The position numbers and the translations under genes are program-made. Source: Methylocaldum szegediense (GTDB lineage: Bacteria; Pseudomonadota; Gammaproteobacteria; Methylococcales; Methylococcaceae). Taken from it: a stretch of DNA of 64,000 nucleotides. The stretch is from positions 930,001-994,000 of the forward strand of contig NZ_OX458333.1 in NCBI RefSeq assembly GCF_949769195.1. The letters are read 5' to 3'. Every line of letters begins with the position of its first letter. The stretch's first letter is position 1. The notes below the pieces were generated by a model that saw only the letters and a program-made list of their open reading frames with translations, was not told where the DNA came from and ran no database searches. Positions 6,213-50,939 of the stretch are shown piece after piece.

Positions 6213-6490
6213 TACAGGGCGGGTTCTTTGCCACACTTGAAGCTCCAACCGTAGCGGCCATATGCCACTCGAGCGTTGAGCCGGTTTATTGGACTAGACT
6301 GCGTGCTGTAGAAGTATGCGGTATAGGCGACGTTATTGAAGCTGACTTGGACGGTCAGTCTCGTGGGGGCCGACATTGAAACGATAGGCCGCCATCAAGT
6401 CCAAACACGCGCAGCGCTTATCGAAAAAATCGTCCAAGCTGAATGTGGATATGGCGTTGTTGAGTGTATTCCCGTACAACTGGGTGATAG
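6213..6490 (-). pseudogene. TonB-dependent receptor, degraded C-terminal fragment
   Basis: On the minus strand one frame reads LDLMAAYRFNVGP. An extra C in a run of five C residues shifts the frame, and the reading continues as TRLTVQVSFNNVAYTAYFYS..., ending at TAA 6215-6213. The two pieces joined match the C-terminal barrel strands of siderophore receptors; compare LDMMAAYRWFIGPTRLTAQVNVNN in the intact receptor at 9596-12034. The upstream part and the usual terminal Phe/Tyr strand are missing. It is a relic of a second receptor that once lay here. Confidence 0.55.
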
Positions 6491-6747
6491 ACCTCACTTT
6501 TTTCCTCGATTCGACGCGGCAAACAGCGAGGTAGCCGGCAGTTGAGGCATTCGCTGGTTGGCATCAATCCTGCCTATATCTCTTTGTCGCATAACCTCAC
6601 TCACGAATGATTGGCGGATGATTGGGCGTTTGTCCGGTGTACCCGGGTTTCGCTCTTCCATCCGCCGTTTTTTGTAGGGGTTGAGTGCAATTCGGAGGCG
6701 GCGACGTGAGCCTCGCAACAATTCCAAAAACAACCGAAGGAGAGTTT

Positions 6748-16018: not shown

Positions 16019-16333
16019 CTACCGTAGCGGTCGCAGCAAATCCTTGCCTTTTTCAATCAGCAGAACTCCATCCGGGAAATATTGAAGCCCGAGACTGGTG
16101 TTTTCCGAACGGCTCGCCAAAGGATAGACCCGCACGTCGTCCACACGCTCGTCGATCCGCTCTATGAGTCCCGCTAGGATTCGGTCGAGCTCCTTGGCCG
16201 TCAGCCGGGCCGTGAACACTGAATATTGAACCGGGATGCCCTGTTCCCGGAGAAAGCGATGAACCCGGCTCAGCCGCTTGGGATCGGCGATGTCGTAGCA
16301 CACCAGATAGGTGTGAGCTTGATTCTGCGCCAT
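16019..16333 (-). CDS. cas2: CRISPR-associated endoribonuclease Cas2 (second copy)
   Basis: 104 residues from ATG 16333, whose first base overlaps the stop of the Cas1-like gene (TGATG); a GTG one codon earlier is an alternative. A ferredoxin-like fold is shown by TYLVCYDIADPKRLSRVHRFLREQG (first strand with the metal-binding Asp, and first helix), QYSVFTARLTAKELDRIL, and DVRVYPL near the end. Cas2 dimers bridge two Cas1 dimers during spacer acquisition. It is the last gene of a four-gene adaptation cluster that contains another, different Cas2 at 18046-18330. The two share little sequence, so they are not a recent duplication. Confidence 0.88.
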   Translation of the reverse strand: MAQNQAHTYLVCYDIADPKRLSRVHRFLREQGIPVQYSVFTARLTAKELDRILAGLIERIDERVDDVRVYPLASRSENTSLGLQYFPDGVLLIEKGKDLLRPLR

Positions 16334-17100
16334 CACTCAAGCTCGATCAGCCAGCGGTGCAGCCGGTTGAGGAGACCGCGGGTCAAATGTACGGTGCGCT
16401 TCCGCCGAGCCTCGAAGAAGCTGACGATTTCGAGGCGCTCGGGAATGCCGAGCTGATTCTCGCGAAGACGGTCTTCGAGCCAGGCCAACCGCGCCAGCTG
16501 GAAATCCCAGAACAGAATGGAACTCAAGGTGGTCACCGGATTGAGCTCGCCCATGAGCTCCGTCTCGGTGGTGATCCCGGCGTCGGCCAGATGCTTCGTC
16601 ACGACGCCCGTCAGCAGTCCGAACACCTCCCTTCCAATGCGCTCGTAGGCGGGAAGCTGCCCCATGCCCCTCGCGCCATCCTGGAACAACTGCCGCAAAG
16701 CCTTCGCCTCCGGCGGCTGATCGAAAGCCAGACCGGTGCGGCGGATCACGCTGCGCAACGCCATGCGCTCCATGGCCGTGGTCCATTGCTCGTATTGTTC
16801 GCGCCAATCCGGGCGCAGCAGAAAATCCAGCAGGCGCTGGCGAAGCTCGCAGCGATTCCCGGGTTTGCCTATCAATCTCGCGAGTACCGTACCTTCCTCG
16901 TCGATAAAGCTGACCGTGATGCGGCTTTCCGCGCAGGCGAGCAAGGCCTCGATAGACCAGTCAATATGCGCGGCTGAAACCACTTGCGAGATCCGGCGCA
17001 AAGGAAACCAGCGTTCAGCGGCACCGGAGCGGGCGACGCGCAGGGCCGGACCGTCGCGCCGGACCACGGTTCCGGGGCCTTGGAGATAAAGCGGTCTCAC
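16333..17100 (-). CDS. Cas1-like protein lacking catalytic residues
   Basis: 255 residues. The GTG at 17100 is chosen because it forms a GTGA overlap with the stop of cas1 and yields a Cas1-type first strand (RPLYLQGPGTVVRRDGPALRV). The N-terminal beta-domain continues in Cas1 fashion (WFPLRRISQVVSAAHIDWSIEALLACAESRITVSFIDEEGTVLARLIGKPG). The C-terminal part is all helical but I cannot find the Glu, His and Asp/Glu of the Cas1 metal site; no EG-A, HEP or DLxEPLRP equivalents are present. Inference: a divergent, catalytically dead partner of the true Cas1 next to it, perhaps shaping substrate choice in a mixed integrase. Alternatively it belongs to an unrelated family with a similar N-terminus. 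Confidence 0.65.
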   Translation of the reverse strand: MRPLYLQGPGTVVRRDGPALRVARSGAAERWFPLRRISQVVSAAHIDWSIEALLACAESRITVSFIDEEGTVLARLIGKPGNRCELRQRLLDFLLRPDWREQYEQWTTAMERMALRSVIRRTGLAFDQPPEAKALRQLFQDGARGMGQLPAYERIGREVFGLLTGVVTKHLADAGITTETELMGELNPVTTLSSILFWDFQLARLAWLEDRLRENQLGIPERLEIVSFFEARRKRTVHLTRGLLNRLHRWLIELE

Positions 17101-18038
17101 GGCGTCTCCTCGGTCAGACGGCGTGCGATCAACAGGCAATAGCGACGCAACAGTCCGCGCAGAGGACGAACGAAATGTTCGTAGCGGCCATAGAACATCT
17201 CCCGGCCGCTCTTTTTCAAGAGACAGCGGTCGGCCTCGGTCGCGAACGAGTCGGCACGCAGGTTTCGTTCGGCGAACAGCCGCCACACCCAGCGATCCAC
17301 CCTGGGCCGCAGCGGCTCGATCAGATCGGCCGCAAGCGACTCGCGCGAGTAGGCCGGCTCGTGATAGAAGCCGACGCAAGGGTCCAGCCCCGCCGCATGG
17401 CAGGCATTGACAGCTTCGAAATGGAGCAGCGTGTAGGCGAGCGATAGGGCCGCGTTGACCGGATCTTTCGGGGGCCGGCGTTTGCGTCCGGTAAACCCGA
17501 GACTGGCCGGAAAGAGCTGCGTAAACCCGGCGAAATAGGCCGCCGCAGCAGCGCCTTCGATGCCCTGCAGCCGTTCCGGCCGCGCCGCGTCATCAACGGT
17601 AGTCAACGCGCGTTCGAGGCGTGCGATGGCGTCGGAAAGCGGCTTGCGGCAATCGGGCCGGACTTGTAGCGCTAACCGCAGCAGGCGAGTTTGTGCCTTC
17701 AGTTTGAGCGCCACCAGCCGGCGCGCCCAGGGCAGCCGAAACTCATCGTCATGGTGCCAACGGTATTGCGCGATGCGCCGCGCGGTGTCGCCATGTTTTT
17801 TTCCGTGCAGAATCGCCGCGGCGCGGCCTTGCCGGCCAGCCAAAACCAGAAGGCCGACGCCTTCCTCAGCGAGCAGGCCCAACACGCCCGTGCTGAGCGT
17901 CGCCTGCCCACGAATAACTACCCGTTCGACCACGTTCAGGGGAATCGTCGCGCTCCGGCTCCCCGCTTCATAAAGGCAGAGATGGCGGCCCTCGCGGCGC
18001 AATTCGATGTCTTTTCTATCGAGGTAAAGCGTGCCCAT
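17097..18038 (-). CDS. cas1: CRISPR-associated endonuclease/integrase Cas1
   Basis: 313 residues. The start MGTLYLDRKD at 18038 is preferred over an ATG 18 bp upstream because GAGGA lies 4 nt before it and it matches the family N-terminus. Cas1 cuts the leader-repeat junction and integrates new spacers. The metal-binding triad is intact: E161 (in GIEGAAAAAYF), H226 (GFYHEP) and D238/E241 (DLIEPLRPRVD). It sits between cas2 (7 bp upstream) and the Cas1-like gene (4 bp overlap). It is the only catalytically competent Cas1 in the window, so it probably serves all three arrays. Confidence 0.95.
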   Translation of the reverse strand: MGTLYLDRKDIELRREGRHLCLYEAGSRSATIPLNVVERVVIRGQATLSTGVLGLLAEEGVGLLVLAGRQGRAAAILHGKKHGDTARRIAQYRWHHDDEFRLPWARRLVALKLKAQTRLLRLALQVRPDCRKPLSDAIARLERALTTVDDAARPERLQGIEGAAAAAYFAGFTQLFPASLGFTGRKRRPPKDPVNAALSLAYTLLHFEAVNACHAAGLDPCVGFYHEPAYSRESLAADLIEPLRPRVDRWVWRLFAERNLRADSFATEADRCLLKKSGREMFYGRYEHFVRPLRGLLRRYCLLIARRLTEETP

Positions 18039-18045
18039 TCGATCC

Positions 18046-18330
18046 TCAGCCGACATAGAAGAATTCTGGATCCGCCGGTGGAACTGCGATGCCCAGCACG
18101 CGAACCTTCATCCGGGGATCCAGCCGCAGGAGCAGAAAGCGGTCGGCCTCCTCGTCGATGACCTCCCGGACCTCGGCGATCAATTGGCGTTTCTCAGCTT
18201 CGGTCAGAAAACACTCGAACACCGATTTCTGGCCGCCCGTGGAATAGTTGCGCAAAACGAACAGTGCCTTGCGCAGGCGGGTTTGGTCGGAGATGTCGTA
18301 AGCGGCGATGTAAAGCGACCGTTTGCTCAT
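18046..18330 (-). CDS. cas2: CRISPR-associated endoribonuclease Cas2 (first copy)
   Basis: 94 residues from ATG 18330 (MSKRSLYIAAYDISDQTRLRK...). It has the Cas2 first strand with Asp (AAYDIS), LFVLRNYSTGGQKSVFECFLTEAEKRQLIAEV and a C-terminal strand VRVLGIAV. It heads the adaptation cluster and partners the catalytic Cas1 encoded 7 bp downstream. It belongs to a different Cas2 subgroup (YSTGGQKSVFEC) from the one at 16019-16333. Confidence 0.92.
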   Translation of the reverse strand: MSKRSLYIAAYDISDQTRLRKALFVLRNYSTGGQKSVFECFLTEAEKRQLIAEVREVIDEEADRFLLLRLDPRMKVRVLGIAVPPADPEFFYVG

Positions 18331-19152
18331 GGCCGCTAACTGTAATGGCGCGCAGGGAAGTCGGGGCGTTTCGCAAGCTTGCCGGCAGTTGGCCAACTAG
18401 CTCGCGGTGTCCGTACCGCGGCAAGTTAGTCAACGGAGCAGAGGACATTGCTTAGGGTACGGTGAGGCACGAACCGCACCGATGACATCCGCGAACGATG
18501 CGCTTCGCTCACCACATCCTACAACCGACGTATCGTAGGGTGCGGTGAGGGACGAACCGCACCAATCGCGTCTTCGACCAGTGGTGCGGTACCCTCCGGT
18601 CACCGTGTCTGACATTGTCGGGTGTGTTGAGGCACGAAGCGCATCAATTGTGTCCGCGAATGATGCGGTTCGCTTCGCTCACCACATCCTACGTCGTAGG
18701 GTTCGGCGAGGAACGACAAACCGGCTGCTCCGCGAATCAAACCGCGATTCTTTCGAGCGAGTAATGCCGGTCCCGCCGGTTATTACATCCGATAATCGTG
18801 GACAATTCGTAGGGTGCGGTGAGGCACGAACCGCACCGATAGCGTCCTCGAATGGTGCCCGTCCTGAACCTGGTCGAAGGGCGGTTCCCTTCGGTCACGC
18901 CATCTTCCTACCACGTGGGGTGCGGTGAACTATAAGCGACAACGATGCGTCGCGAACGATGCGGTTCGCTTCGCTCACCACATCCTACAACCGGCGTATC
19001 GTAGGGTGCGGTGAGGGATGAACCGCACCAATCGCCCCGCGAACTGCACCGGTCGTGTCCGCGAACGATACGGTTCGCTTCGCTTACCACATCCTACAAC
19101 CGGCGTATCGTAGGGTGCGGTGAGGAACGAACCGCACCGATCATGCCTCAAC
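18331..19152. repeat. Cluster of palindromic GTAGGRTGCGGTGAG repeats between cas2 and cad1
   Basis: About eight tandem or nested copies of a palindromic unit. Each left arm reads GTAGGGTGCGGTGAGG, followed by ACGAACCGCACC. Each right arm reads GCGGTTCGCTTCGCTCACC, then ACATCCTAC, the inverted form. Copies start near 18453, 18535, 18615, 18695, 18810, 18913, 19001 and 19108. The linker AACCGRCGTATC recurs. No gene is present. The same family flanks the distal ends of all three arrays and recurs at 22436, 57193 and 63070. Confidence 0.8.
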
Positions 19153-21261
19153 TCAAACCCCAAACTGCTTGAGCACCTGCCGGTAAATCGCGTCATCCAC
19201 GCGTTTAATCAGGATTTCCTTTTCCTGGCTTGGGAGGAAGGCGTGGACGAAGGCCTGCTTGATCATGGCCAAGGCATCCCAGCAATTGAATTTTTCCTCG
19301 CCAACCATACGCGCGGCGGCCAGGTATTCACCGGTCAGCGTGGTGCGGCTGATGCCGGGGTTGTCCGTGCATAGCGTCAGAGGGAGGCCGGCTTGCCAGA
19401 GTTTCCAGAGCGGGTATTCGCGACATTCCGCCGTTTCCGGATAAGCCGGATCACGGTAACCCACCACCTCTCGATTCGAACTGGGACAAAGCTCCAGGCA
19501 GATGCTTCGGTCGCGGAAGCGCTGGGCGAGAGGGGCATGATCGCCGATGGTCAGGCCGTGACCGATTCGGTCGGCATGAAAGTGATAAGCCGCCTTCCAG
19601 ATTTGTTCCGCGGTTTCGCCCTCGCCGGCGTGGATGGTCAGCGGCAGGCAGATCTCGAAGGCGCGGGCAAAGGCGTTCGCGGCATCGGGAGGCAGCGCTT
19701 GCGCCTCGTCACCCGCCATGTCGAGCCCGACCACGAAGTCCGGCAGACACTCTTTCGCCCGAACCGCGAGGTCGATCACGTCTGAGAGCTTCTCGTGTTG
19801 GCGCCGGTCGGCGATGAGGATGAACCGGAACACGGGGCGCGGATCGTGCGGCAAGCTTGCCATCGCGGCTTGCAAGGCGGCGGCCAGGCGCTCCAGGAAC
19901 AGCAGTCCGTCGCCATATTTGTGCGGGCTCCCGCGCAGCTCGACATAGGCGAGACCCTCGGCCTGTGCCTGACGAACAAGGCAAGCGGCGTAGGGGTCGA
20001 TTGCGGCGGGATGCGACAGGATCGCCGAGCCGGACAGTTCGCCCGGCCGCTCGTAGGCCGCGAAGCCGAGCGGATGGCGCGATTTGAGCGCGACCCGCGG
20101 TTCCGTGACGTCGAATAGATTCGCGATCAGGCGGTCGGTGTCGGCATGGACGAGCAGGGCGGCGGTCCAATGCGGTCTCGGGATGTCGGATGTCACCCAT
20201 CGCCTCGGCCAGTCGGAGGGCCAGAGGGTTTGTTCGAGCAGAGGCGCGACATGGTCGAGAGCACGCCCGCGCTCGGAAGGTGTCAACGTGTCCCATACCG
20301 CTCGGCCAACCGTGCGCTGGTCGTCGAGACCGAGGCAGCCGCCAATGTGCCGGTGCAAATCCCCCTTGGGCAGCGCTCGAAGCCAATCGGCGAGTCCCGG
20401 GTCCAACGGTCGCCTCCGCAGGTTTTCGATGACGCGCGGGGGTAGGCGATAAAGGCTACGCCAATTCTCGTGGTGTTCAGCCTCGCCGAGCGCTCTCAGA
20501 TAATTACCGAGCAACTGGCTTCCGGCCGCTTCGCGCCTACGGATTTCATCGCGAAGCGAGTGGCCTTCCGTGTGTGCCCAGGGCAGCGGCGTGCCGGGCT
20601 CGGCGAGAGGCAAGGGAAAACCTCGGCTGGAGACTACGCCACGGCCGTCCAGTTCGACATCCAACAGCTCGCTGCGCCGGCCGACTCCCGCCACTAACGG
20701 TACCACCGCAGGGACGATCTCGGCCGGCAGCTCGCGGGTGAAAAATTCGACGGTCGGTTCCCTAAGCAGTTTCGGCAACGGTTCTTGGCCGACCACATGA
20801 ATCAGCGCATCGCAGCCAAGCACGGAACCCGCCCATTGCAGATCGGCGCTCATGGTTTTGCGTCCGCCTGCGAGCGAAAACACGACCTGGCCGTCTCCGG
20901 CGCGCTCATGCGCCAAAAGGCAAAGGCGCAACAGCACTTCGCGGAACCGCTCGCACTCGGTCTGGCTCGCGAGCTGGTCGGTTCTTTCGGCCTGCCAGAT
21001 CCTAAGCATTGGCGGGTGTTCCAGCCGAGCATGCCAATCGAGCAAGGCCGCGATACCTTCCTCGGGTTTATCGCCTTGCGTCGTGCAGACCCAGATTTCG
21101 TCCGGCGGTTCGAGCCGATATTCATGGCGCTGGCGTTCGAAGTCGGCGCGTTGAGGATGGCTGCGGTAGAGCGGCAAGCGGTCTGGGGAGAGAAAGCCAT
21201 AAACTTCGGGAATCACCGCCCAGGACGCGCCGAGCGTGCACAGAAGAATGTTGGTTTTCAT
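19153..21261 (-). CDS. cad1: Cad1: CARF-domain adenosine deaminase, type III CRISPR effector
   Basis: 702 residues from ATG 21261, an ATGA overlap with the Nudix gene. Residues 1-180 form a CARF sensor (ILLCTLGASWAVIPE; DEIWVCTTQG; SLAGGRKTMSA at 129-139, the cyclic-oligoadenylate pocket). A linker follows, then an adenosine-deaminase TIM barrel from about 298. Zinc ligands H303 and H305 (DLHRHIGG), H544 and D633 are present, with catalytic E547 (HAGEGET) and H568 (RIGHG). The usual second Asp of the TDD motif is Asn (TDNP). Family knowledge, as I recall it: Cad1 proteins bind cA4/cA6 and deaminate ATP to ITP, halting infected-cell growth. It lies last in csx16-nudix-cad1. The CARF plus complete active site make the identification strong; substrate is by homology. 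Confidence 0.93.
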   Translation of the reverse strand: MKTNILLCTLGASWAVIPEVYGFLSPDRLPLYRSHPQRADFERQRHEYRLEPPDEIWVCTTQGDKPEEGIAALLDWHARLEHPPMLRIWQAERTDQLASQTECERFREVLLRLCLLAHERAGDGQVVFSLAGGRKTMSADLQWAGSVLGCDALIHVVGQEPLPKLLREPTVEFFTRELPAEIVPAVVPLVAGVGRRSELLDVELDGRGVVSSRGFPLPLAEPGTPLPWAHTEGHSLRDEIRRREAAGSQLLGNYLRALGEAEHHENWRSLYRLPPRVIENLRRRPLDPGLADWLRALPKGDLHRHIGGCLGLDDQRTVGRAVWDTLTPSERGRALDHVAPLLEQTLWPSDWPRRWVTSDIPRPHWTAALLVHADTDRLIANLFDVTEPRVALKSRHPLGFAAYERPGELSGSAILSHPAAIDPYAACLVRQAQAEGLAYVELRGSPHKYGDGLLFLERLAAALQAAMASLPHDPRPVFRFILIADRRQHEKLSDVIDLAVRAKECLPDFVVGLDMAGDEAQALPPDAANAFARAFEICLPLTIHAGEGETAEQIWKAAYHFHADRIGHGLTIGDHAPLAQRFRDRSICLELCPSSNREVVGYRDPAYPETAECREYPLWKLWQAGLPLTLCTDNPGISRTTLTGEYLAAARMVGEEKFNCWDALAMIKQAFVHAFLPSQEKEILIKRVDDAIYRQVLKQFGV

Positions 21262-21842
21262 ACGGAATTTCGGATCAGAAAGTCGGCCGCGAAGCGGCTC
21301 CACAACTCGAAGCGTAAATCGTCCATGATCCGTTCGGCCGGAACGAAGCCGATGCCCTTCAATCCTTGGCCTTCGACCGGTTGCGGCGGGCCATCCTCGC
21401 GCCAGCAGAGAACGTAAAGCAAACCGATGTGTACTCGTCCGACCGCTGAGAGTTCCTCGTAGATCCAGGCGGCCGGCTCCGGGACGTCGATTTTCGACTG
21501 CAACTGAAGCTCCTCTCGCAACTCGCGGAGAAGCGCTCGCTCGGCCATCGTACCGATCGATTCCGCCGCGTCAGTTTCGTCGATATGCCCGCCGACGCCG
21601 GCGCTGAACCGGTCCTGCAGTCGGGCATCGCCGCCGTTTCGCGCATAGCACCAGATGTCGCCCGAACGATTTCGGAGCAGCGCGTACGGAATGATTTGCA
21701 GAAAACGCTCGTCGGTTTCGGCGTCGGAACGCGGCCGCCAGGTCCACTCACTGGGGTAAGGCCAGTCGGATAGACGCCATGCACCGGTTCCTGGCAAAGG
21801 CAGCCAAGCGGCGCGGGGAACCACCAGGATGCGCGGGCTCAA
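21258..21842 (-). CDS. Nudix hydrolase coupled to Cad1
   Basis: 194 residues; ATGA overlaps with csx16 upstream and with cad1 downstream, so all three are co-translated. The Nudix region is GGHIDETD, a short insertion, then RELREEL; the Glu cluster that holds Mg is intact though the classic box is stretched and its last Gly is Gln. Nudix enzymes cut pyrophosphate bonds of nucleoside diphosphate derivatives. Its position makes an action on the Cad1 product (ITP/IDP to IMP) or on oligoadenylate signals attractive, but that is inference. No CARF domain, signal peptide or membrane segment is present, so it is cytosolic and not itself ligand-gated. Confidence 0.85.
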   Translation of the reverse strand: MSPRILVVPRAAWLPLPGTGAWRLSDWPYPSEWTWRPRSDAETDERFLQIIPYALLRNRSGDIWCYARNGGDARLQDRFSAGVGGHIDETDAAESIGTMAERALLRELREELQLQSKIDVPEPAAWIYEELSAVGRVHIGLLYVLCWREDGPPQPVEGQGLKGIGFVPAERIMDDLRFELWSRFAADFLIRNSV

Positions 21843-22144
21843 GGGGTTTCCTTTCCGGCCTCGACCACGCGATATTCGACAATGCGGGCGCCGAATCGCC
21901 TAAGATCCTCGGCCGAGAGCTCGCGCCCTCGCCATCCCGGCGGTATTTCCAGAGCTAGATGAAAATAACGCGCACCGAGCGCGCACACCTCCGCCGCCAG
22001 ATGGACGGGCAGGGTACCGATCACCCAATCCCCGGATTTCACCTCCGCGATGTCCAGATGCGCCAATTGCCGGTCGACAGAAATTCCGCTCTCGCGCGCC
22101 CAATCAACGGCGCCGGGATGGCGGGTTACGAAGTAAGTCGTCAT
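21839..22144 (-). CDS. csx16: Csx16 family protein (predicted cA4 ring nuclease)
   Basis: 101 residues, starting TTYFVTRHPGAVDWA, the hallmark of the Csx16 (VVA1548) family, and continuing with HLDIAEVKSGDWVIGTLPVHLAAEVCALGARYFHL. Single CARF-like domain, full family length. The family is reported to degrade cyclic tetra-adenylate and so reset type III signalling. It is the first gene of the csx16-nudix-cad1 operon (ATGA overlap), placing the off-switch before the toxic deaminase. This hints that the relevant signal here is cA4, though cA6 sensing by the other CARF proteins is not excluded. Confidence 0.9.
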   Translation of the reverse strand: MTTYFVTRHPGAVDWARESGISVDRQLAHLDIAEVKSGDWVIGTLPVHLAAEVCALGARYFHLALEIPPGWRGRELSAEDLRRFGARIVEYRVVEAGKETP

Positions 22145-22579
22145 AGGTCATACATACTCAGTGGGAATATCCAAGGAATTCGGTCTTAATTTATGGTTTC
22201 AGGGATTTGATAACCCTTGGAGGGTATGCCGATAAACAGGCGCATCTTTCACGAATGATGCCTGTCCTGAGCCCGGTCGAAGGGCCTGTCCCGAGTTCGG
22301 TTGAAGATCGGTTTTTCTGAGGTCCCCGCATTCTACGCTATGAATATTCCCCGGCTTCCGGTGTTTTTCATGGCCTCTTCCGCAGAAGGCTTTTCGATAT
22401 GTGATCTCGATTCAAATCCGCTATGACAAGCAGACCGTAGGATGCGGTGAGGCACGAACCGCATCTTTCGGTTTTCTGCGCTCCCAGGACGACGGTTTGC
22501 GATTGAAAACGCATGGTCGAGAACGCGAACGATGCGGTTCCCTCCGGTCACTGCATCCTACGGCCTTTTCAGGTTTTTT
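22145..22579. other. Spacer between csx16 and array 1 with palindromic repeats
   Basis: No gene. A full palindromic unit of the GTAGGRTGCGGTGAG family lies at 22436-22563. A CCTGAGCCCGGTCGAAGGG-type repeat lies near 22263. The unit abuts the distal end of array 1 and may act as its terminator, as transcription runs leftward. Confidence 0.55.
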
Positions 22580-25500
22580 ATGGATACCCCTTCTTAATCA
22601 GGTCTCGATTCAAACTTTTAACGATGCGGAAAGACAAAATTGCTGAGGCGTCTTAATCCCTTCTTGATCAGGTCTCGATTCAAACGGATGCGGTATGACA
22701 AATAAAAAAAACTCGCCCGGTCTTAATCCCTTCTTGATCAGGTCTCGATTCAAACCAAACGACCAAGCCAATCACCGCTACAGCGAGCGTCTTAATCCCT
22801 TCTTGATCAGGTCTCGATTCAAACAAAGTGGCGGAACTCAATAACGCTTTCATGGATTTGGTCTTAATCCCTTCTTGATCAGGTCTCGATTCAAACAAAG
22901 TGGCGGAACTCAATAACGCTTTCATGGATTTGGTCTTAATCCCTTCTTGATCAGGTCTCGATTCAAACAATCACGCGGATCGAATGACCGAAAAGGCACA
23001 AGGTCTTAATCCCTTCTTGATCAGGTCTCGATTCAAACTCCGTTAAAGCTCTAGTTGAGATTTCTCGACTCAAGTCTTAATCCCTTCTTGATCAGGTCTC
23101 GATTCAAACGCGTTCTGGCGCCGATTCGCGCGCGCGGCGAGAAGTCTTAATCCCTTCTTGATCAGGTCTCGATTCAAACAGATAAGCCATGATTATTGAA
23201 GAGTTGAAAAAACAGTCTTAATCCCTTCTTGATCAGGTCTCGATTCAAACGCAGGAATTGGATGCGATAGCGATGGAGCGCGGAGGTCTTAATCCCTTCT
23301 TGATCAGGTCTCGATTCAAACCCAACGCCCGCGCCAATGCCGCCTTCATCGCCGGTCTTAATCCCTTCTTGATCAGGTCTCGATTCAAACTCTTGGGAAA
23401 GCTTAAAGATTGATGGCATGAAAGATGTCTTAATCCCTTCTTGATCAGGTCTCGATTCAAACCACTTTGAAAGAGTGGACCATGCCCTCATTCCTGTCTT
23501 AATCCCTTCTTGATCAGGTCTCGATTCAAACCACCGACCTGTCCACGCTCATCACCAGCAAGTGGGGTCTTAATCCCTTCTTGATCAGGTCTCGATTCAA
23601 ACATCGAGTGGATTGAAAGTCTGAAGTTGTCTCCCGGTCTTAATCCCTTCTTGATCAGGTCTCGATTCAAACCCGATGCGCCAGCATCAGCTGCGCAAGA
23701 ACGGGTCGTCTTAATCCCTTCTTGATCAGGTCTCGATTCAAACTATGGTCCGCCGCACGGACCAAAAAGGACGCGAAGTCTTAATCCCTTCTTGATCAGG
23801 TCTCGATTCAAACAATCAGTCATCGGTGGATATGCGATGACTAACCCGTCTTAATCCCTTCTTGATCAGGTCTCGATTCAAACGGAACGAGGACGCCTCT
23901 TATCCCTTCGGCCAGCCGTCTTAATCCCTTCTTGATCAGGTCTCGATTCAAACGTCTGAAGCCTACAAAAAAGCGGTGAAAATGTGTCTTAATCCCTTCT
24001 TGATCAGGTCTCGATTCAAACCCACTCGTGACTAACCAAACCACCGCCCAAGGATGGGTCTTAATCCCTTCTTGATCAGGTCTCGATTCAAACGATAAAG
24101 AAATGAAGGCCCTAGTCGACGCGTGTCCGTCTTAATCCCTTCTTGATCAGGTCTCGATTCAAACAAAGTCTGCATACTTAACCATGCTGTACCCTTTAGT
24201 CTTAATCCCTTCTTGATCAGGTCTCGATTCAAACAGTGGATATTCGAAAACAAGGTCCAATTGCCGGGTCTTAATCCCTTCTTGATCAGGTCTCGATTCA
24301 AACATATGCCGATACTTTATTATGAGTTTGAGGATGGTCTTAATCCCTTCTTGATCAGGTCTCGATTCAAACATGAGGTATTTCGCAGTGAGCTTTGGGG
24401 ATCTGGTCTTAATCCCTTCTTGATCAGGTCTCGATTCAAACTGGCTGACCGACCTAAAAGATCGGCAGGCACGCGTCTTAATCCCTTCTTGATCAGGTCT
24501 CGATTCAAACTATTACGACATCCACATTGCTTATGGCGGTGATCGTCTTAATCCCTTCTTGATCAGGTCTCGATTCAAACTAAAGAGAGGAGAAAAACAC
24601 ATGAAAAACCAAGTCTTAATCCCTTCTTGATCAGGTCTCGATTCAAACACGAAATCGAATCCATCATTCCCGCTGAGTTGTGGTCTTAATCCCTTCTTGA
24701 TCAGGTCTCGATTCAAACGAAGGAGGATGCCATGAATAAGAAATGTGATCATGTCTTAATCCCTTCTTGATCAGGTCTCGATTCAAACTAAGTCATGATC
24801 AAAAATTTTAAAGGAGGCGGAAGTCTTAATCCCTTCTTGATCAGGTCTCGATTCAAACCCCAAGACGGCACGGAAATCACGATCCCGCCCTGTCTTAATC
24901 CCTTCTTGATCAGGTCTCGATTCAAACTATTACGACATCCACATTGCTTATGGCGGTGATCGTCTTAATCCCTTCTTGATCAGGTCTCGATTCAAACCAA
25001 TTCATGCCTACAATGGCATGAAAAGAGCTTCGGTCTTAATCCCTTCTTGATCAGGTCTCGATTCAAACATGCCAAAAGTCTTCTTAGGATGCGACAAGTC
25101 GCGTCTTAATCCCTTCTTGATCAGGTCTCGATTCAAACCTGAGGTGAAAAATGACTAAAAAGCAAGCATCTGTCTTAATCCCTTCTTGATCAGGTCTCGA
25201 TTCAAACTTATTGACGCACTAGAAGAAAGCTTGGATTCCAAGTCTTAATCCCTTCTTGATCAGGTCTCGATTCAAACAAAAATGAAAAAACAAGCATCTA
25301 ATATTCTTAAAGTCTTAATCCCTTCTTGATCAGGTCTCGATTCAAACATATATGTTTGTAGAGAGTGGTGTGATCATCTGTCTTAATCCCTTCTTGATCA
25401 GGTCTCGATTCAAACGGAGCACCAATTTGATGATGTTAAACTTTTAAGGTCTTAATCCCTTCTTGATCAGGTCTCGATTCAAACGATCACAACAGATTAA

Positions 25501-27673
25501 TAGTAGACGGCGGATCTAGTCTTAATCCCTTCTTGATCAGGTCTCGATTCAAACATTCGCCTGTGGATAACTTGCGCCGCTTCCTGGAGTCTTAATCCCT
25601 TCTTGATCAGGTCTCGATTCAAACAACAACTGGAGAATAAAATGAAATTAAGCGAAGCGTCTTAATCCCTTCTTGATCAGGTCTCGATTCAAACGTAATC
25701 CGGAGGCCTCACGTTCATGAAGCTAAATGAAGTCTTAATCCCTTCTTGATCAGGTCTCGATTCAAACGCCCGTTTGGGTAGCCAACACCCGCGGGATTGG
25801 AGGGTCTTAATCCCTTCTTGATCAGGTCTCGATTCAAACCCCAGATGGCTCGTGTGTGTTGCCGGATCGGTTCCGTCTTAATCCCTTCTTGATCAGGTCT
25901 CGATTCAAACAACGGAGGACTGGGAATTGCCGTAATCAGTGTTCGTCTTAATCCCTTCTTGATCAGGTCTCGATTCAAACAGGTAAGCCATGATTAATCT
26001 GACTCCACACGCCATGTCTTAATCCCTTCTTGATCAGGTCTCGATTCAAACGAAACCCTGGAAGGCATCATGTCTTTGGCGGTTGCTGTCTTAATCCCTT
26101 CTTGATCAGGTCTCGATTCAAACAATCTGACTCCTCACCCAATTGTTATCCGCGGCCAGGTCTTAATCCCTTCTTGATCAGGTCTCGATTCAAACACGGT
26201 CGGTCTATCGGGTGCATCAATACCGTAGGGGTCTTAATCCCTTCTTGATCAGGTCTCGATTCAAACGAAAATGGGACTAAAACAAGCGATTGAGCAGGCA
26301 GTCTTAATCCCTTCTTGATCAGGTCTCGATTCAAACTACGAAAAAGACGTTTATGCCGCGATTGCAAAGGCGTCTTAATCCCTTCTTGATCAGGTCTCGA
26401 TTCAAACGATCGAGACCAACGGGACCTTGTTCGTCCCGGACCGTCTTAATCCCTTCTTGATCAGGTCTCGATTCAAACTGCCGGTACTTAATGGATTCTA
26501 CCTAGGGGCCTTGTCTTAATCCCTTCTTGATCAGGTCTCGATTCAAACCCACACTACTAAAAACTATCAATCAGAAGATCGTCTTAATCCCTTCTTGATC
26601 AGGTCTCGATTCAAACTTCTTGCTGCGCTATCAAAGCGCGGCAGGAGTATCAGTCTTAATCCCTTCTTGATCAGGTCTCGATTCAAACACGGTCGCCGAA
26701 TACTACGCAACTCGGGTGGAACACGGTCTTAATCCCTTCTTGATCAGGTCTCGATTCAAACATTGCGTCGTGGTAAAACACGACGCGACGGAGCGGGTCT
26801 TAATCCCTTCTTGATCAGGTCTCGATTCAAACAAAAGGGGACATAATCGGGATCGAGGGGATACTCGTCTTAATCCCTTCTTGATCAGGTCTCGATTCAA
26901 ACCAAGCGCGGCGAAGGCTATATATCACAGGTCTCCGTCTTAATCCCTTCTTGATCAGGTCTCGATTCAAACCAATGAGATTTGCGTTTATCAGCCGTCA
27001 CACTCCCGTCTTAATCCCTTCTTGATCAGGTCTCGATTCAAACCGCTTGCATACGAGCAAAATGCCGACCAAGTGGTAGTCTTAATCCCTTCTTGATCAG
27101 GTCTCGATTCAAACGAAGCGATTAAACAGGCAGCAAATCTTGCTTATGGTCTTAATCCCTTCTTGATCAGGTCTCGATTCAAACAACCCAGGCGCGCTTA
27201 CTCCCCGCGCCATCGTGTCTTAATCCCTTCTTGATCAGGTCTCGATTCAAACGAAACAACAGGTTTCAAACCTACAGGCTGAAATCGGTCTTAATCCCTT
27301 CTTGATCAGGTCTCGATTCAAACGGAGAATAGAGATGAAATTAAGCGAAGTAATTAAGTCTTAATCCCTTCTTGATCAGGTCTCGATTCAAACAGAAATC
27401 AATGAAGAAAACTTCCCAACCTACTTTGGTCTTAATCCCTTCTTGATCAGGTCTCGATTCAAACCTTTGGCCGCACTTGGCCATGGCGACAAAGTTGTGT
27501 CTTAATCCCTTCTTGATCAGGTCTCGATTCAAACGGGCAAGTCAACCTAACCCGGAAGAGCGGGAAAAGTCTTAATCCCTTCTTGATCAGGTCTCGATTC
27601 AAACTTAACCCACCACAAGCTATCTAACGTCGCTTAAGTCTTAATCCCTTCTTGATCAGGTCTCGATTCAAAC
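22580..27673 (-). CRISPR. CRISPR array 1 (73 repeats, 72 spacers), beside type III-B genes
   Basis: Counted by hand. The 36-bp repeat begins GTCTTAATCC and ends GATTCAAAC on the + strand, with TTGATCAGG in the middle; spacers are mostly 33-37 bp. The leader is on the right (27674-27777) and the degenerate repeat is at the left end (22580-22615), so transcription is leftward and the mature repeat ends in GATTAAGAC, as in type III 5' handles. The left-end repeat carries TTAATCA, the array 2/3 variant, while ending GATTCAAAC. Identical spacers occur at 22825-22860 and 22897-22932, and at 24511-24544 and 24928-24961. Confidence 0.97.
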
Positions 27674-27777: not shown

Positions 27778-28857
27778 TCATTCCGGTAGAACCTCCAGCA
27801 ATTCAGCAGTTCCGTTTTGCAAACGGACTCTAACTCGCGCTATCAGCTCCTTATTTTTCGCTTTCTCCTGTCGGCGCTTTGATCTCAAGGCATCGAACAA
27901 CTCTTTGGCTTCCCGCCGGATGGCTTTCTGGGTTGTCACTTCGGCAACCATCTCCCGCGTATTCACACTATAGGATACTCGCGCGTTTTCCCAAATCACG
28001 TCTCCGGCTTCGGTAAGTTCTGGCTCGCCGGTTTTCGCCGAACTTTTCAGTGCACCATAACCGACTGCGGTCTTGGCGCCGAAACCCAGCCAGTCGAAGG
28101 CGTGGGCGAAGGCGGCGCGGAGCAGGTCTTGCCAGTGTCCCTCGGGCCAATCGGCCGGCAAGCGAGATATATCGCACACAACATGAAAAGTGAAAGGGGT
28201 TTTAGCCGGTACGGTGAGGAAGAAAATCGGTTTGGGACTATAGCAGTCCGCCGGTGTTTTACCTTCCTGATAGTAAGGACCGTAATGGGGATTCATGATA
28301 TCGGCGGCGAGTGAATCGCATCGCGGAAAGACGTCCCAGAAGCTCAAGGCGCCGCGGGTATGGTCATCCTTCCGGTCTTCGGTTTCCTTTCCGAACAGGC
28401 AGTCTATGGCAGCCTGGTTCCAGCCTTGCGTGCCCTCGCCGAACAGATCGTCTCTCAGTTCTTCGGCGGCCTTGCGGAGAACGCCCTTGACACCCGAGCC
28501 CGGCAGATACGGAAGGCCATAGGGATTCAGAAAGGCCATGCCGTTTTCCAAAGGGTGTTCGATGCCGGTGCCCGTGACGAAAGGGGAAACGCTTTCTGTC
28601 TCCATGGTGAGAACGCGTTCCCCGAACTGTCGCGCGTGTTGGTATTGGCGTTCGATCACGGCATCGCGGAGACGCAGCGTGCTGTCCGGGAGCTTCCGGA
28701 ACATGCGGTTCAAGGCTTCGGGCTTGACGTTTTCCACGCGCTTCCAGTCCCGTTCCGGCTCCCAGAACGCGCCGTAGAGCGTGTACCGATGTCCCGGCGG
28801 GCAGTCGGAAAACTCGGTGTTGCGTGTGAGATAGTCGGGTACTGCGGGTTGTGCCAT
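27778..28857 (-). CDS. cmr6: Type III-B RAMP protein Cmr6
   Basis: 359 residues with AGGAGG 5 nt before the ATG. RAMP/RRM fold with the glycine-rich signature region: FVTGTGIEHPLENGMAFLNPYGLPYLPGSGVKGVLR in the N-terminal half and WLGFGAKTAVGYG near 270-283. Cmr6 caps the Cmr4/Cmr5 filament near the 3' end of the crRNA, next to Cmr1. Its C-terminal 60 residues are a charged helix (RREAKELFDALRSKRRQEKAKNKEL). It is the last gene of the operon; the array 1 leader starts 1 bp after its stop codon. Confidence 0.92.
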   Translation of the reverse strand: MAQPAVPDYLTRNTEFSDCPPGHRYTLYGAFWEPERDWKRVENVKPEALNRMFRKLPDSTLRLRDAVIERQYQHARQFGERVLTMETESVSPFVTGTGIEHPLENGMAFLNPYGLPYLPGSGVKGVLRKAAEELRDDLFGEGTQGWNQAAIDCLFGKETEDRKDDHTRGALSFWDVFPRCDSLAADIMNPHYGPYYQEGKTPADCYSPKPIFFLTVPAKTPFTFHVVCDISRLPADWPEGHWQDLLRAAFAHAFDWLGFGAKTAVGYGALKSSAKTGEPELTEAGDVIWENARVSYSVNTREMVAEVTTQKAIRREAKELFDALRSKRRQEKAKNKELIARVRVRLQNGTAELLEVLPE

Positions 28858-28866
28858 GCTTGCCTC

Positions 28867-29208
28867 CTAGGCTACCGCTGCCGCAAACTGGCGTATCCAT
28901 TTCAGAACCGCCAGGACTTCTTCGGTCGCAAGGCGGTAAGTCGCAGAATCGGCCTGCTGCAATTCTTTCATGGCGTCCTTGAAAGACGCTTCGCGGATGA
29001 TCGACCGCCGCTGGAGCCATTCGCAAAGATGTCGGTTCAAAAGGAAATGATGATCCTTTTCCTTGCTTTGATAAAACGCCATAGCTTGCATTAGCCCGTT
29101 GTTCATGATGAACGCAGGGGCGCCCTTGACCAGGTTCTTGTATTCGTCGGTGCAGGGTTGAACTTTTTCCCACGCGAATGCCGCGCGCTGCTGTTCGAGG
29201 GTTGGCAT
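28867..29208 (-). CDS. cmr5: Type III-B small subunit Cmr5
   Basis: 113 residues, all helical, the usual Cmr5 length. EQQRAAFAWEKV at the start and the GLMQAMAFYQSK core are characteristic. Cmr5 lines the target RNA channel alongside Cmr4. It is 9 bp upstream of cmr6 and 85 bp downstream of cmr4, without its own evident promoter. Confidence 0.92.
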   Translation of the reverse strand: MPTLEQQRAAFAWEKVQPCTDEYKNLVKGAPAFIMNNGLMQAMAFYQSKEKDHHFLLNRHLCEWLQRRSIIREASFKDAMKELQQADSATYRLATEEVLAVLKWIRQFAAAVA

Positions 29209-29293
29209 ATTTTCAGTTTCCGTATCGAGTCTCTTGTTCGGTTGGATACATCATCTCGAACGGTGCGCTTCACTTCGTTCAGCGCATCCTGTT

Positions 29294-30214
29294 TTACGAG
29301 ACGGTGGTGACGACGACATGGCCGCGGCCGGTGGTGGCGTCACCGCCCACTTGCAGCACTTGTCCGTCGAGCCCTGGAATGCCTTCGCCGCCCTGGAGCA
29401 CGATCTTCATCACGTCCTCCGCCCGCAGGCTGCCCTTGCCGCTGCGTTCGGGCGAAGCCATGACAGGAGCGATCAGCAGCGATTCGGGCGGTAGGTTTTC
29501 GGTGTAGAAAAGACCGCCATCCTCCGCTGTGCCTTTTTCGTTGTGGATGCGCACATGCGGTTCGACGACGGTGGCGTTCTTGACGTAGTAGCCGAAATCT
29601 CCGTCCGGCAGCAGCACCAGGTCATGTTTGAGCTTTTCCCGGAAGAACGCGTAAGCCTCGCTCGAAGGCAGGGCGTGTCCGGCCAGCCAGTCGGCGATGG
29701 CATTCATCTCCGGAGCGGCCACGGCGACATGCTCGAACGACTCCAAATGGAGCGGCTTACCGCTTTCGACCGGCGCTCCGTCGGTGACGATGCGGCAAAA
29801 GTTGTCTTTCACCTCCGGGATTTCCCAGGGGACTTCGATGCCGAGCAGGTTCAAGGTTCTTACCGTTCTCGCCAGGGCCGTCGGCGAAGTCGCATAGACG
29901 TAGGCACGCCGGGTGCAGCGTACCGGGAAGGCGACCAACTGGGCGTCGCCGAAGCTGATCGCACCGGCATGCAGCTCGGTGTTGCCTGCATCTGGACCGA
30001 ACAAGCGGTCGAGCAGGCCGTTGTCGTTCGCGCCGTTCAGCGCCGTCCAGGCGCGATGACGGACTGCGCCCTTGAGCCCGGACCCTGCGAACAAGGGGTA
30101 GTCGGTATGGCGCTCGCGCTGGATGGGATTGTCGATCAAGCCGACCGCGGTGCCGGCACCCATGTGGACCGGACTGATGCAATACAGGAACAAGGCTTTT
30201 GCGGTTTGGAACAT
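29294..30214 (-). CDS. cmr4: Type III-B backbone RAMP nuclease Cmr4
   Basis: 306 residues with AAGGAG 6 nt before ATG. It starts LFLYCISPVHMGAGTAVGLIDNPIQRERHTDYPLFAGSGLKGAVRHRAW. The Asp in GLIDNPIQRE corresponds to the catalytic Asp that cuts target RNA every 6 nt, and the loop GSGLKGAVR contacts crRNA. The C-terminus has the Cmr4 pattern VQVGGDATTGRGHV (here LQVGGDATTGRGHVVV). It forms the repeated backbone of the Cmr complex. Confidence 0.94.
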   Translation of the reverse strand: MFQTAKALFLYCISPVHMGAGTAVGLIDNPIQRERHTDYPLFAGSGLKGAVRHRAWTALNGANDNGLLDRLFGPDAGNTELHAGAISFGDAQLVAFPVRCTRRAYVYATSPTALARTVRTLNLLGIEVPWEIPEVKDNFCRIVTDGAPVESGKPLHLESFEHVAVAAPEMNAIADWLAGHALPSSEAYAFFREKLKHDLVLLPDGDFGYYVKNATVVEPHVRIHNEKGTAEDGGLFYTENLPPESLLIAPVMASPERSGKGSLRAEDVMKIVLQGGEGIPGLDGQVLQVGGDATTGRGHVVVTTVS

Positions 30215-30348
30215 AGAGGCTCCTTAGAGTGAAAAACGGGTTCGGGACAAGTGGGCGAACGCCCGGGAAGGGATCGGTGATGGACCGAAGAGCGGAGTCG
30301 CTCCCACTTGCCGATTCCGAGCACTAACCGGATACAAAGCGTACATCC

Positions 30349-31500
30349 TCAGTTCTTTCGGTGCGGCCAAGCGGCCAGGGCGGCATTGTTGAACCCTTCT
30401 GCCTTGCGTTGCCGGTCAGGATACTCGGACAGGCACCAAAATCCGCTTTCCGCAAGCTTGCGGAGGTCCTCGGCTTTACCCTCGAACTCGTCCAACCAAT
30501 ACACCGAGCCGACCGGTACGGCGCGAAGCGCTTGTTTCGGCTGCCCTCGGGCCAGGTCCCAGCCGCTCACCACGGTATGGCGGCTGATCGCCGCGGATAC
30601 CAGGCGAGCCGAACAGCCGCCGGGACCTCGCCAGCGATTGTTTCCATCGGTGCCGGGCAAGCGCCAGCCGTCCTCGAACAGTCCCGGCGACGTCAGCACG
30701 AGGCGAAAGCGCCGGTCGCGGAGGATGCCTTCCCAGTCTGGTTCCGGCCAGTCGATATCTGCCGGCCGTACTGCGGCGGCGCGTCCGTCTCCGCCGAGCC
30801 GTACCAATCCGCTGGAAGGCAGAAGGCTGTCAGCACCGGCGATGCGAACCAAGAATCCCACGTTCTCGCAAAGGCTCACGGTCTCGGCGGTATACAGCCG
30901 CCCCTCGGCGGCGACGGCCCGTTCCGGTTCCAGGGCGATGCCGAGGCGCGGATCGTGTTTCCAGAGCGTCGCGCTCGACACGAAATGGTCCTTCCCAAGG
31001 AGATCCCCTCGGAGGTATGCCTGCCATCCAGTCTGATTTAGCCAAAATCCGCCCTTGGGTTTTGCGGGGCCGTCGGTACACAGCGCAGGCAAGCGGGGCA
31101 GGGGATAGCCGGAGCGGACTCCGGGCGGCGGTTCCTTGGGTTCCAGGTATGCGGCATCGCTCGCATCGTCCTGGGTTATCACGACATCCGCCGGCAGGGG
31201 ATGGAAGGGTTCCAGTCTTCCGTCGGTCGACCGCGCCAAGGTGAAGGACGCGATGCGGAAAGAACCGGGTGCGGTCGGCGTCCCTAAGGCTTCACGCAAG
31301 GCCGGATCGGCCAGGGAATCGCCGTTCGCGAACGAATTGGGATCGCTGCCTGCGTCGGCCAGCATGCGCGAGCGGATGGCGCCTGCCGCGAGCGACGGCC
31401 AGGGCGGCATCAGCGCTTCGCCGTGCGCGCCGGCGCCGTCGAACAGTTTGTTGCCGCGCAGATAAAGCACGTCCAGAGGTTCGAGAAACAGATCATTCAT
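30349..31500 (-). CDS. cmr3: Type III-B RAMP protein Cmr3
   Basis: 383 residues. Starts LFLEPLDVLYLRGNKLFDGAGAHGEALMPPWPSLAAGAIRSRML, the Cmr3 start with the crRNA 5'-handle binding loop. Cmr3 pairs with Cmr2/Cas10 and holds the 5' handle (here GATTAAGAC-type). The C-terminal RRM includes VPVGSVYWLDEFEG. Located 30 bp after cmr2 and 134 bp before cmr4. Confidence 0.92.
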   Translation of the reverse strand: MNDLFLEPLDVLYLRGNKLFDGAGAHGEALMPPWPSLAAGAIRSRMLADAGSDPNSFANGDSLADPALREALGTPTAPGSFRIASFTLARSTDGRLEPFHPLPADVVITQDDASDAAYLEPKEPPPGVRSGYPLPRLPALCTDGPAKPKGGFWLNQTGWQAYLRGDLLGKDHFVSSATLWKHDPRLGIALEPERAVAAEGRLYTAETVSLCENVGFLVRIAGADSLLPSSGLVRLGGDGRAAAVRPADIDWPEPDWEGILRDRRFRLVLTSPGLFEDGWRLPGTDGNNRWRGPGGCSARLVSAAISRHTVVSGWDLARGQPKQALRAVPVGSVYWLDEFEGKAEDLRKLAESGFWCLSEYPDRQRKAEGFNNAALAAWPHRKN

Positions 31501-31530
31501 GCCAGTCGCCTTTCGTAGAACGTTTCAAGT

Positions 31531-34500: not shown

Positions 34501-34513
34501 GTATCGCGTTCCT

Positions 34514-35620
34514 TCAGATGCGTTGAAAAACAGAAGCAGATGAGTCGAGCCAAGCGTGAACGCGTGACCATACCTCGGCCTGCTTATCGACATTCGGTTT
34601 GTTCGGGCCGAGTTTTTGCGCGAGTTCGTACGGCAGCGCGCACGGGAGATGAAAGATCATCGAAACGAATTTACCGTTCGCGGTTTTCGCGACTTTGAAA
34701 CGAAGCTGGTTGGCAAGACGTGCCTCTCGGGGAAGCTTTTCCACGTTATGGTTTGTCACTGGATAGGCAAGAAGATGACGATCCTCGAATGGTCCATTTC
34801 TACCGTGAGTAAACTTAAGGTGGGTGCGAAACCCGATTTTCGCCTTTGCCAATGTGGTCATTGCGTCCCGCCAAGTCGGGAATTCTTGCTTCGATTTCCA
34901 GAACAAGACTCCACGCGCATCCTTACCGAGAGCGTGTGGCCAGTCCTGTCTTAAGCATTGGTCGAGCGGAAGAGCTATTTCGGCAATCAGCGGATCGGAT
35001 GCTGCCGGTATCGCCACGCTTTGAATGTCACCGCCAGTTAAAGCGAGTGAACCCCAGCCATTTCGCGATCTGCCCCCGATCGTGCCGAACCAATGAATGA
35101 GTTGCAGCGCCTCAGGCAAGGCCGCAGCAGCTTGAGAGATCGCACGGTCTGTCAACCCAGAAACCAAGGCACCATTCGTGTGAGTCGGAAAAGCGACATG
35201 AAGTCGGGCATGGTGGCCAGCTTGAATAGCGGCATTCGCTTTCAGTACGGTTTTCCCCTGTGCGAATGTAAGCGGGCCATATCCCAGATAGAGTTGTGCA
35301 CCGATATTGCGTCCACCTCGCACCTCTCGGTGAAAAACCTGAGTGTCTTGCTCCCATGACCGCAGAACGCCATGATCCCACCGATCCAACCGCATCCGTA
35401 CCGCGCTCTGCCGCGATTGGTTTTCGCCGGCCGTTCCGAACAGCAAGCCCTCAGCCTCCCGCAACCTTTCGCTGTCGTAGCCGAAGCCGTTAGCCGCCGC
35501 AATCCGCCACCACTGCCGTAATAGCGCCTTAAATGGCGGTGTGCGCCATTGGCTGCTCTGCTCGGCATTACCCAGAAATGCGGGCGTATTGAAGCGCACG
35601 GTCAGTTCCAGTTTTCTCAT
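34514..35620 (-). CDS. cmr1: Type III-B RAMP protein Cmr1
   Basis: 368 residues; AGGGGGATAT precedes the ATG. N-terminal MRKLELTVRFNTPAFLGNAEQSSQWRTPPF is split here into its key parts: a first RRM strand, a FLGNA turn and a W-R-TPPFKALLRQWWR crRNA-binding segment. GTIGGRSRNGWGS near 190 is the RAMP G-loop. Cmr1 caps the 3' end of the complex and captures target RNA. It heads the cmr structural genes; a 297-bp gap with no gene separates it from the CARF-HEPN gene upstream. Confidence 0.92.
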   Translation of the reverse strand: MRKLELTVRFNTPAFLGNAEQSSQWRTPPFKALLRQWWRIAAANGFGYDSERLREAEGLLFGTAGENQSRQSAVRMRLDRWDHGVLRSWEQDTQVFHREVRGGRNIGAQLYLGYGPLTFAQGKTVLKANAAIQAGHHARLHVAFPTHTNGALVSGLTDRAISQAAAALPEALQLIHWFGTIGGRSRNGWGSLALTGGDIQSVAIPAASDPLIAEIALPLDQCLRQDWPHALGKDARGVLFWKSKQEFPTWRDAMTTLAKAKIGFRTHLKFTHGRNGPFEDRHLLAYPVTNHNVEKLPREARLANQLRFKVAKTANGKFVSMIFHLPCALPYELAQKLGPNKPNVDKQAEVWSRVHAWLDSSASVFQRI

Positions 35621-40218: not shown

Positions 40219-41263
40219 CCTGATTAGTGATGAATTTCAGCTAAGCGAAGTTGCCACTCGGGGCGAGGTGGAGTGAATACGGCAGCGTGCGCTAGCCGGC
40301 GAAGCAGCGTTTTGAGATCGAAACGCCGATTGAAACGGTATTGGAACTCGGTCAGATACCGCTTGGCGTATTTCTCGAATTTGAACGCGTGATAGGTACC
40401 GGAAATCGCGGTCTTCAGGTTACTCAACAACGTGTTAACCCAACGAAACTCAGGATGTTGTGCCGACTGCCGCCCAGAGCCCAGAATCAGGCATTCGTGG
40501 CGAGCGACGACGTGCTGCAAGCTCCGAAACCCGCTCAAACCATCGGTGAGTGCATAAGTCGACGGAGCTAAGGCGCGTTGAGCCCACTCCGCAATCGCCT
40601 GCTGGGTGAACGGCAGGGGATCGATACGCACAAATAACGGACGTCCGTCATCCGTGGTTTGCACCGCCATCACGAAGGCGACTTTGTTTTCCGACCCTCG
40701 TCCCCGTTTCCCCGAGCGCTCACCGCCCAGGTAAGCATCATCGATCTCGACCCGCCCGCTCAACTGCCGATCCGCCTCCCGCTCCGCCATCACCTGAATC
40801 AACTTGTGCTTTATCAGCCAGGCGGTGCGATAACACACGCCGAGATGACGCATCAACTCCAAGGCTGAGACATTGTTCTTGGCCTGGGTTAGGAGATACA
40901 TCGCCAGAAACCAGGTGGTGAGCGGCAGCTTGGTCGCTTCGAAGAGCGTCCCGGCGGTTAACGTCGTTTGCTTTCGGCAGTGTCCGCATTGCCAGTAGGT
41001 TCGCTCATTTCGTTTGAATACCGTATGCCGTGCCTCGCCACAGGCTGGGCAACGGAAACCGTCCGGCCAACGCAGAGCTTGTAAGGCCGCTTCGCACTGT
41101 GCTTCGGTGCCGTATTGGGTCAGAAACTCGGCCAACGACAATCCCTTTTGAAATTGCACTTGGTTCATTGACATGGGACACCTCTCTTGTGATCGATGTC
41201 CATAGTCTAAAGCCTCTACTCGCTCACCACGTGAGCCTGTGCTGAACTTTCTCGCTAATCAGG
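40219..41263 (-). mobile_element. IS1595-family (ISXO2-like) insertion sequence
   Basis: 1045 bp. The imperfect inverted ends start CCTGATTAG and finish GTTCAGC or TTTCAGC inward (about 23 bp). An 8-bp target duplication AATTTTAT is at 40211-40218 and 41264-41271, the length usual for this family. It carries a single transposase gene and is inserted in an array 2 spacer. Both ends and the duplication are intact, so the insertion is recent. Confidence 0.93.
40224..41174 (-). CDS. IS1595-family transposase
   Basis: 316 residues; AGAGGTG lies 5 nt before ATG 41174. N-terminal zinc ribbon (FRCPACGE ... YWQCGHCRKQ), helix-turn-helix region (LMRHLGVCYRTAWLIKHKL), then the ISXO2-like DDE-type nuclease: VEIDDAYLGGERSGKRG (first Asp), ALTDGLSGF (second Asp) and the HPEFRWVNTLLSNLKTAISGTYH segment typical of the family. 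No frameshift is visible, so it is probably active. Mediates cut-and-paste or copy-type transposition of its own element. Confidence 0.94.
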   Translation of the reverse strand: MSMNQVQFQKGLSLAEFLTQYGTEAQCEAALQALRWPDGFRCPACGEARHTVFKRNERTYWQCGHCRKQTTLTAGTLFEATKLPLTTWFLAMYLLTQAKNNVSALELMRHLGVCYRTAWLIKHKLIQVMAEREADRQLSGRVEIDDAYLGGERSGKRGRGSENKVAFVMAVQTTDDGRPLFVRIDPLPFTQQAIAEWAQRALAPSTYALTDGLSGFRSLQHVVARHECLILGSGRQSAQHPEFRWVNTLLSNLKTAISGTYHAFKFEKYAKRYLTEFQYRFNRRFDLKTLLRRLAHAAVFTPPRPEWQLRLAEIHH

Positions 41264-46724: not shown

Positions 46725-46828
46725 GGCTCGTGTCTAAAACACCTCCATATTCAAAGGGTTACAAAGGGGGTTGCAGAAAAATCGACTTGCCGAAAAGTTA
46801 GCATCGAGCGAAGGCGATTTTCGGGGCA
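46725..46828 (-). promoter_or_regulatory. Leader of array 2
   Basis: Same conserved blocks as the leaders of arrays 1 and 3 (CTAAAACACCTCCATA, GGTTACAAAGGGGG, TTGCAGAAAAAT, CCGAAAAGTTAGCATC). It ends at the uma2 stop codon. Confidence 0.85.
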
Positions 46829-50072: not shown

Positions 50073-50143
50073 GCGGATGTTCCGTTTCTCCAATCGATGA
50101 TGACAGCGCGTGAAGAGAGGCGAATGTCGCCGGCGGGTACGCG

Positions 50144-50866: not shown

Positions 50867-50939
50867 AGTCGGTATTTCTCGAATTATTAAGTAAGCAGTT
50901 GGATAAACACGCAAAACCGATTTGATGTCCGTATTGCCG

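Follow-up and report, generated by a model that had tools for sequence, protein, structure and literature searches.

Background

The canonical CRISPR integrase is a hexamer built from four copies of one Cas1 and two copies of one Cas2, in which Cas1a cuts and joins and Cas1b merely holds DNA and Cas2. To our knowledge, all characterised Cas1-Cas2 integrases are made from one Cas1 and one Cas2. In the solved integrases each Cas1 dimer pairs Cas1a, which is catalytic, with Cas1b, which is not, the Cas2 tail contacting Cas1b (PMC8102632). Contact of a non-catalytic Cas1 with the repeat has also been reported (PMC6895254).

We analysed a stretch of 64,000 nucleotides (hereafter the window) from the 4.9 Mb genome of Methylocaldum szegediense (contig NZ_OX458333.1, positions 930,001 to 994,000), which holds a four-gene adaptation cassette, besides which the genome contains two further cas1 loci. 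The cassette shares with the canonical heterohexamer (E. coli, 5ds5; Cas6-RT-Cas1-Cas2, 7kft) the Cas1 fold, the Cas2 proteins and, on our reading, a catalytic and a non-catalytic Cas1 position per dimer. However, in the canonical complex one protein fills both Cas1 positions, whereas the cassette has a separate gene for a Cas1 without an active site, together with two different Cas2 genes. Modules containing RT-Cas1 (Marinomonas RT-Cas1, Cas6-RT-Cas1) are, like the cassette, type III adaptation operons, yet they carry a reverse transcriptase (RT), whereas we detected no RVT_1 match in the M. szegediense genome and the cassette does not class as an RT-associated module.

A Cas1 paralogue without an active site

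The cassette occupies 16019-18330 on the minus strand in the order cas2a-cas1-cas1L-cas2b, and its genes overlap their successors by 11, 4 and 1 nt, respectively. Pfam and NCBIfam identify both small proteins as Cas2 and the 319-residue protein as Cas1. The first Cas2, encoded by cas2a (18046-18330, minus strand; 94 aa), is assigned by PF09827 (2.8e-14) and by family alignments, in which its C-terminal tail (...DPEFFYVG) is conserved across the cassette family. The second, encoded by cas2b (16019-16333, minus strand; 104 aa; PF09827, 7.8e-17), is dissimilar and of the QYSVF / DDVRVYPL type. Both retain the conserved N-terminal Asp (YD motif), and their tails differ strongly. Between them lie cas1 (17097-18056, minus strand; 319 aa), which matches PF01867 over its full length (3.3e-78), and the GTG-initiated cas1L (16333-17100, minus strand), which encodes a Cas1 paralogue of 255 aa. 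With csm and cmr genes and an array linked to it, the cassette passes as a type III adaptation module.

By sequence, the resemblance of Cas1L to Cas1 is confined to residues 4-126, in its N-terminal half (PF01867, 5.3e-12). Structure prediction, which a preliminary description of the locus had named as a possible refutation of its Cas1-like protein, nevertheless returned a Cas1 fold: a single-chain AlphaFold2 model built from the 22-member family alignment (pLDDT 92.9, pTM 0.89) superposes on the solved Cas1 4xtk_B over 249 of 255 residues (Z 21.6, rmsd 2.9), and thus along the whole length. A second family member, only 20% identical to the window protein, is likewise predicted to adopt a Cas1 fold (pLDDT 88.9; Z 17.7), and comparison of the Cas1L and partner Cas1 family profiles gives a probability of 97 (E 5e-11). 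The C-terminal half has diverged, its tie to Cas1 being mainly structural.

The partner Cas1 keeps its triad (E167/H232/D244) without exception in the alignment of 22 loci, bearing out the preliminary claim of a single catalytic Cas1. In Cas1L, the segment carrying the catalytic Glu has been deleted together with the RRPP loop in all 22 homologues, and 21 or all 22 of them, depending on which of two alignments is used, lack the His. At the third position 13 of the 22 retain Asp, and the window protein has Ser. The absence of the Glu-His-Asp metal-binding triad expected of an integrase enzyme, which had been noted from the window protein, therefore extends to the family as regards Glu and His, but Asp is retained in more than half of its members. 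Cas1L is a Cas1 fold without an active site.

The family has been seen before, as all 22 members match the PADLOC profile PDLC01185 (best 1.2e-75), annotated in one line as 'Cas1, diverged variant, second in the loci', and cas1L adjoins cas1 in all 22 loci, as that annotation would have it. PDLC01185 and Cas1L are thus the same family. The statement that such a module had not been characterised is borne out in the open-licence literature, where we found no paper on the family, its inactivation, its two Cas2 proteins or its mechanism, but a profile already covers it.

Distribution, selection and origin

Of 369 genomes sampled from the class, 23 gave a match to the Cas1L sequence, with ordinary Cas1 at the weakest end of these matches. 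In a phylum-wide sample the PADLOC diverged-Cas1 profile was matched in 8 of 398 genomes, and a search of plasmids with Cas1L returned ordinary Cas1 only. Our set of 22 loci comprises the window, 19 loci from the sampled genomes, and two close relatives, Methylocaldum sp. 14B (L031) and a metagenome-assembled genome named Methyloversatilis (L030), whose cas1L genes are 85% and 91% identical to that of the window, respectively. The order cas2a-cas1-cas1L is kept in all 22, cas2b comes next in all 20 loci whose contig continues, and the gap between cas1 and cas1L falls between -29 and +35 nt in 21 of the 22. Such recurrence of one four-gene order across some twenty bacteria that are only distant relatives suggests a dedicated integrase of mixed composition.

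Among close relatives, dN/dS is 0.13-0.16 for cas1L, compared with 0.12 for cas1 and 0.07-0.21 for the cas2 genes, such that Cas1L is under purifying selection, like the catalytic Cas1. The missing active site, and the loss of the gene in one relative (see below), might suggest that Cas1L is a functionless duplicate in decay. However, this is hardly credible given the dN/dS values, which contradict a pseudogene, the retention of gene order in 22 loci, and the single, old clade that Cas1L forms (support 100/100). The preliminary proposal of a mixed module of Cas1, inactive Cas1 and two Cas2 genes hence describes a real and conserved arrangement. Cas2a and Cas2b also form separate single clades (98/95), as does the partner Cas1 (97/90; 98/99 with L169-L171 added). 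Pairwise distances among the four proteins correlate at 0.80-0.90 (mirror-tree; Mantel p 0.001), and the four proteins co-evolve.

The nearest relatives of the partner Cas1 belong to modules with the order cas2a-cas2b-cas1 (L124-L126) or cas2a-cas2b-cas1-RT (L173-L176), none of which has Cas1L. These modules of type III loci resemble the cassette in their two Cas2 families, related Cas1 and similar repeat ends, but differ in gene order, in the absence of Cas1L and, in some, in the presence of an RT. In the type III-like L173-L176 the RT is a separate gene directly after cas1, making these relatives that combine two Cas2 genes with a reverse transcriptase. Since the sister modules have two Cas2 genes and one Cas1, the most parsimonious history starts from the pair of Cas2 genes, with Cas1L as a later addition, which suggests a partnership of Cas2a and Cas2b that predates Cas1L.

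The sister modules also bear on the hypothesis that the cassette encodes two complexes, one in which Cas1 and Cas2a integrate, and another in which Cas1L and Cas2b form a non-integrating DNA binder for choosing or shielding prespacers, or for occupying the array. The presence of two Cas1 and two Cas2 genes in one operon, and the strongly different Cas2 tails, would fit such a division. We nonetheless consider it quite unlikely, because those modules combine both Cas2 proteins with only one Cas1, and Cas2b therefore does not need Cas1L.

A natural loss of the inactive Cas1 is found in L169, a locus inside the Cas1L-bearing clade, where only a remnant of about 23 N-terminal codons of cas1L persists between cas1 and cas2b (6469-6630), and the reading frames of cas2a, cas1 and cas2b are still open. 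Consequently, either Cas1L may be dispensable, or the L169 module may itself be decaying. The former would suit a protein that stands outside the integrase core in an accessory or regulatory role, like that of Csn2 or Cas4, and helps prespacer capture or trimming, and the invariable position of cas1L beside the integrase genes is equally compatible with this. However, an unrelated accessory would have no need of a whole Cas1 fold with a recognisable N-terminal half, and we regard such a role as unlikely.

A proposed heteromeric integrase

We think it probable, if by no means assured, that the four genes form one type III adaptation module with a heteromeric integrase in which Cas1L is a dedicated Cas1b. 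The two Cas1 jobs would then be divided between two genes, with the active site staying in Cas1 and Cas1L serving as the structural partner. The likeliest architecture would be a Cas2a-Cas2b pair flanked by two Cas1-Cas1L heterodimers, and the benefit would probably be a fixed, asymmetric complex in which the reaction is possible for the correct subunit only. We infer heterodimer formation, subunit placement, stoichiometry and benefit from the Cas1 fold, the lost active site, purifying selection, linkage, co-evolution, and the two-Cas2 sister modules without Cas1L. Of these, linkage and co-evolution would equally arise were Cas1L a loosely associated accessory. The cassette is a real, conserved and uncharacterised variant of the CRISPR integrase, and a heteromer is its likely explanation.

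Four different subunits would give the complex a built-in polarity, and this could fix the orientation of incoming spacers. Spacer insertion in one fixed orientation, independent of PAM and Cas4, is decidedly doubtful as a property of the cassette, but if real would meet the need of type III systems for crRNAs antisense to transcripts. The cassette also bears on spacer orientation in PAM-free type III systems. Separate catalytic and structural Cas1 genes with two Cas2s would furthermore allow the role of each position to be dissected gene by gene, and a natural heteromer would show a route from symmetric to asymmetric integrases.

Arrays and spacer bias

Three minus-strand CRISPR arrays lie in the window: array 1 (22580-27673; 72 spacers), array 2 (37488-46725; 115 spacers, with a transposase-like ORF inserted at 40224-41174) and array 3 (57337-61932; 65 spacers). 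They share a leader, found at their right ends, and have degenerate repeats at their left ends, indicating that crRNA is read on the minus strand. Wherever an array was detected near a Cas1L locus (12 loci: the window, L031, L032, L033, L036, L039-L042, L047, L049 and L050), the repeats measure 36-37 nt and end in GGGATTAAGAC (crRNA sense), with spacers of 33-34 nt. This repeat end also occurs in most sister modules, and many other arrays have GAAAC-type ends.

The preliminary description suggested that a mixed integrase could explain unusual spacer choice, namely a start-codon bias, strand orientation or RNA-related capture. The 247 unique window spacers are strongly oriented: a motif combining a ribosome site with ATG is present 24 times on their target strand versus 4 times on the opposite strand, and overlapping spacer pairs share the same orientation in 41 cases versus 4 in opposite orientation (about 4 expected by chance, by our own estimate). 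Other Cas1L arrays give 17 and 2 for the same motif. A baseline drawn from T7 gives 15.0 +/- 3.7 and 4.3, and the observed 24 is thus 1.6 times the expectation. This excess is weak (P about 0.01-0.015), and with a stricter motif it falls short of significance. We therefore rejected start-codon bias as a trait of the cassette.

Strand orientation fares no better as a cassette signature. Another array of the same genome gives 3 and 5, yet its repeat resembles type I-C, and the ordinary type III arrays used as controls (Synechocystis pSYSA, Thermus pTT27 and L188; about 150 spacers), which are served by ordinary Cas1 and whose target strand was taken from repeat orientation, lean the same way as the window (6 versus 1). 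A purine excess on the target strand is likewise present in most of these controls. In Thermus, such spacer strand bias has been attributed to selection (PMC7515739). Given that ordinary type III arrays lean likewise, we ascribe this bias to the function of type III systems and to selection rather than to the cassette.

These comparisons also weigh on the view that the cassette is an RNA-capturing or start-codon-seeking integrase. In its favour are the crRNAs antisense to gene starts (24 versus 4), the weak excess over T7, and the RT gene in some sister modules. However, with no RT match in the M. szegediense genome, on which account capture of RNA by the cassette was rejected, with the same strand tendency in ordinary type III arrays, with an excess that loses significance under the stricter motif, and with selection as the published cause of such bias, this explanation is very improbable.

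Several spacers of arrays 1-3 resemble versions of a single gene start that occurs repeatedly (GGAGAATA.A.ATGAAATTA); a protospacer search of viral contigs with this pattern gave no match. A spacer at 43272-43305 ends with a piece of CRISPR repeat (GGTCTTAATCCCTTC), perhaps a product of faulty integration.

Neighbouring genes

The effector and ancillary genes of the window listed below lie on the minus strand. Type III-B (Cmr) effector genes occupy 27778-35620 (NCBIfam Cmr6, Cmr4, Cmr3, Cmr2), and type III-A (Csm) effector genes 47365-56954 (NCBIfam Csm1, Csm3, Csm4); the ORF at 55992-56954 is probably Cas6, an assignment of our own made without an NCBIfam match. Upstream of the cassette, a tight operon (19153-22144) encodes Csx16 (21839-22144; PF09652, 1.7e-38), of a family with ring nuclease activity (PMC12409355), a Nudix-like protein (21258-21842; PF00293, 0.002, below the cut-off) coupled to Cad1, and Cad1 itself, a CARF-adenosine deaminase and Cad1-type ancillary effector (19153-21303; PADLOC CARF5--CARF_ADA, 1.8e-245). 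The trio recurs in L030, L031 and L038, where the Nudix-like homologues are also adjacent to Cad1. The Cad1 literature that we found does not mention Nudix, and the pairing of a Nudix protein with an ATP-to-ITP deaminase may therefore merit attention. Short, dispersed, imperfect repeats of the GTAGGGTGCGGTGAGGCACGAACCGCACC type lie between the CRISPR genes of the window, at 18436-19143 and 22421-22561.
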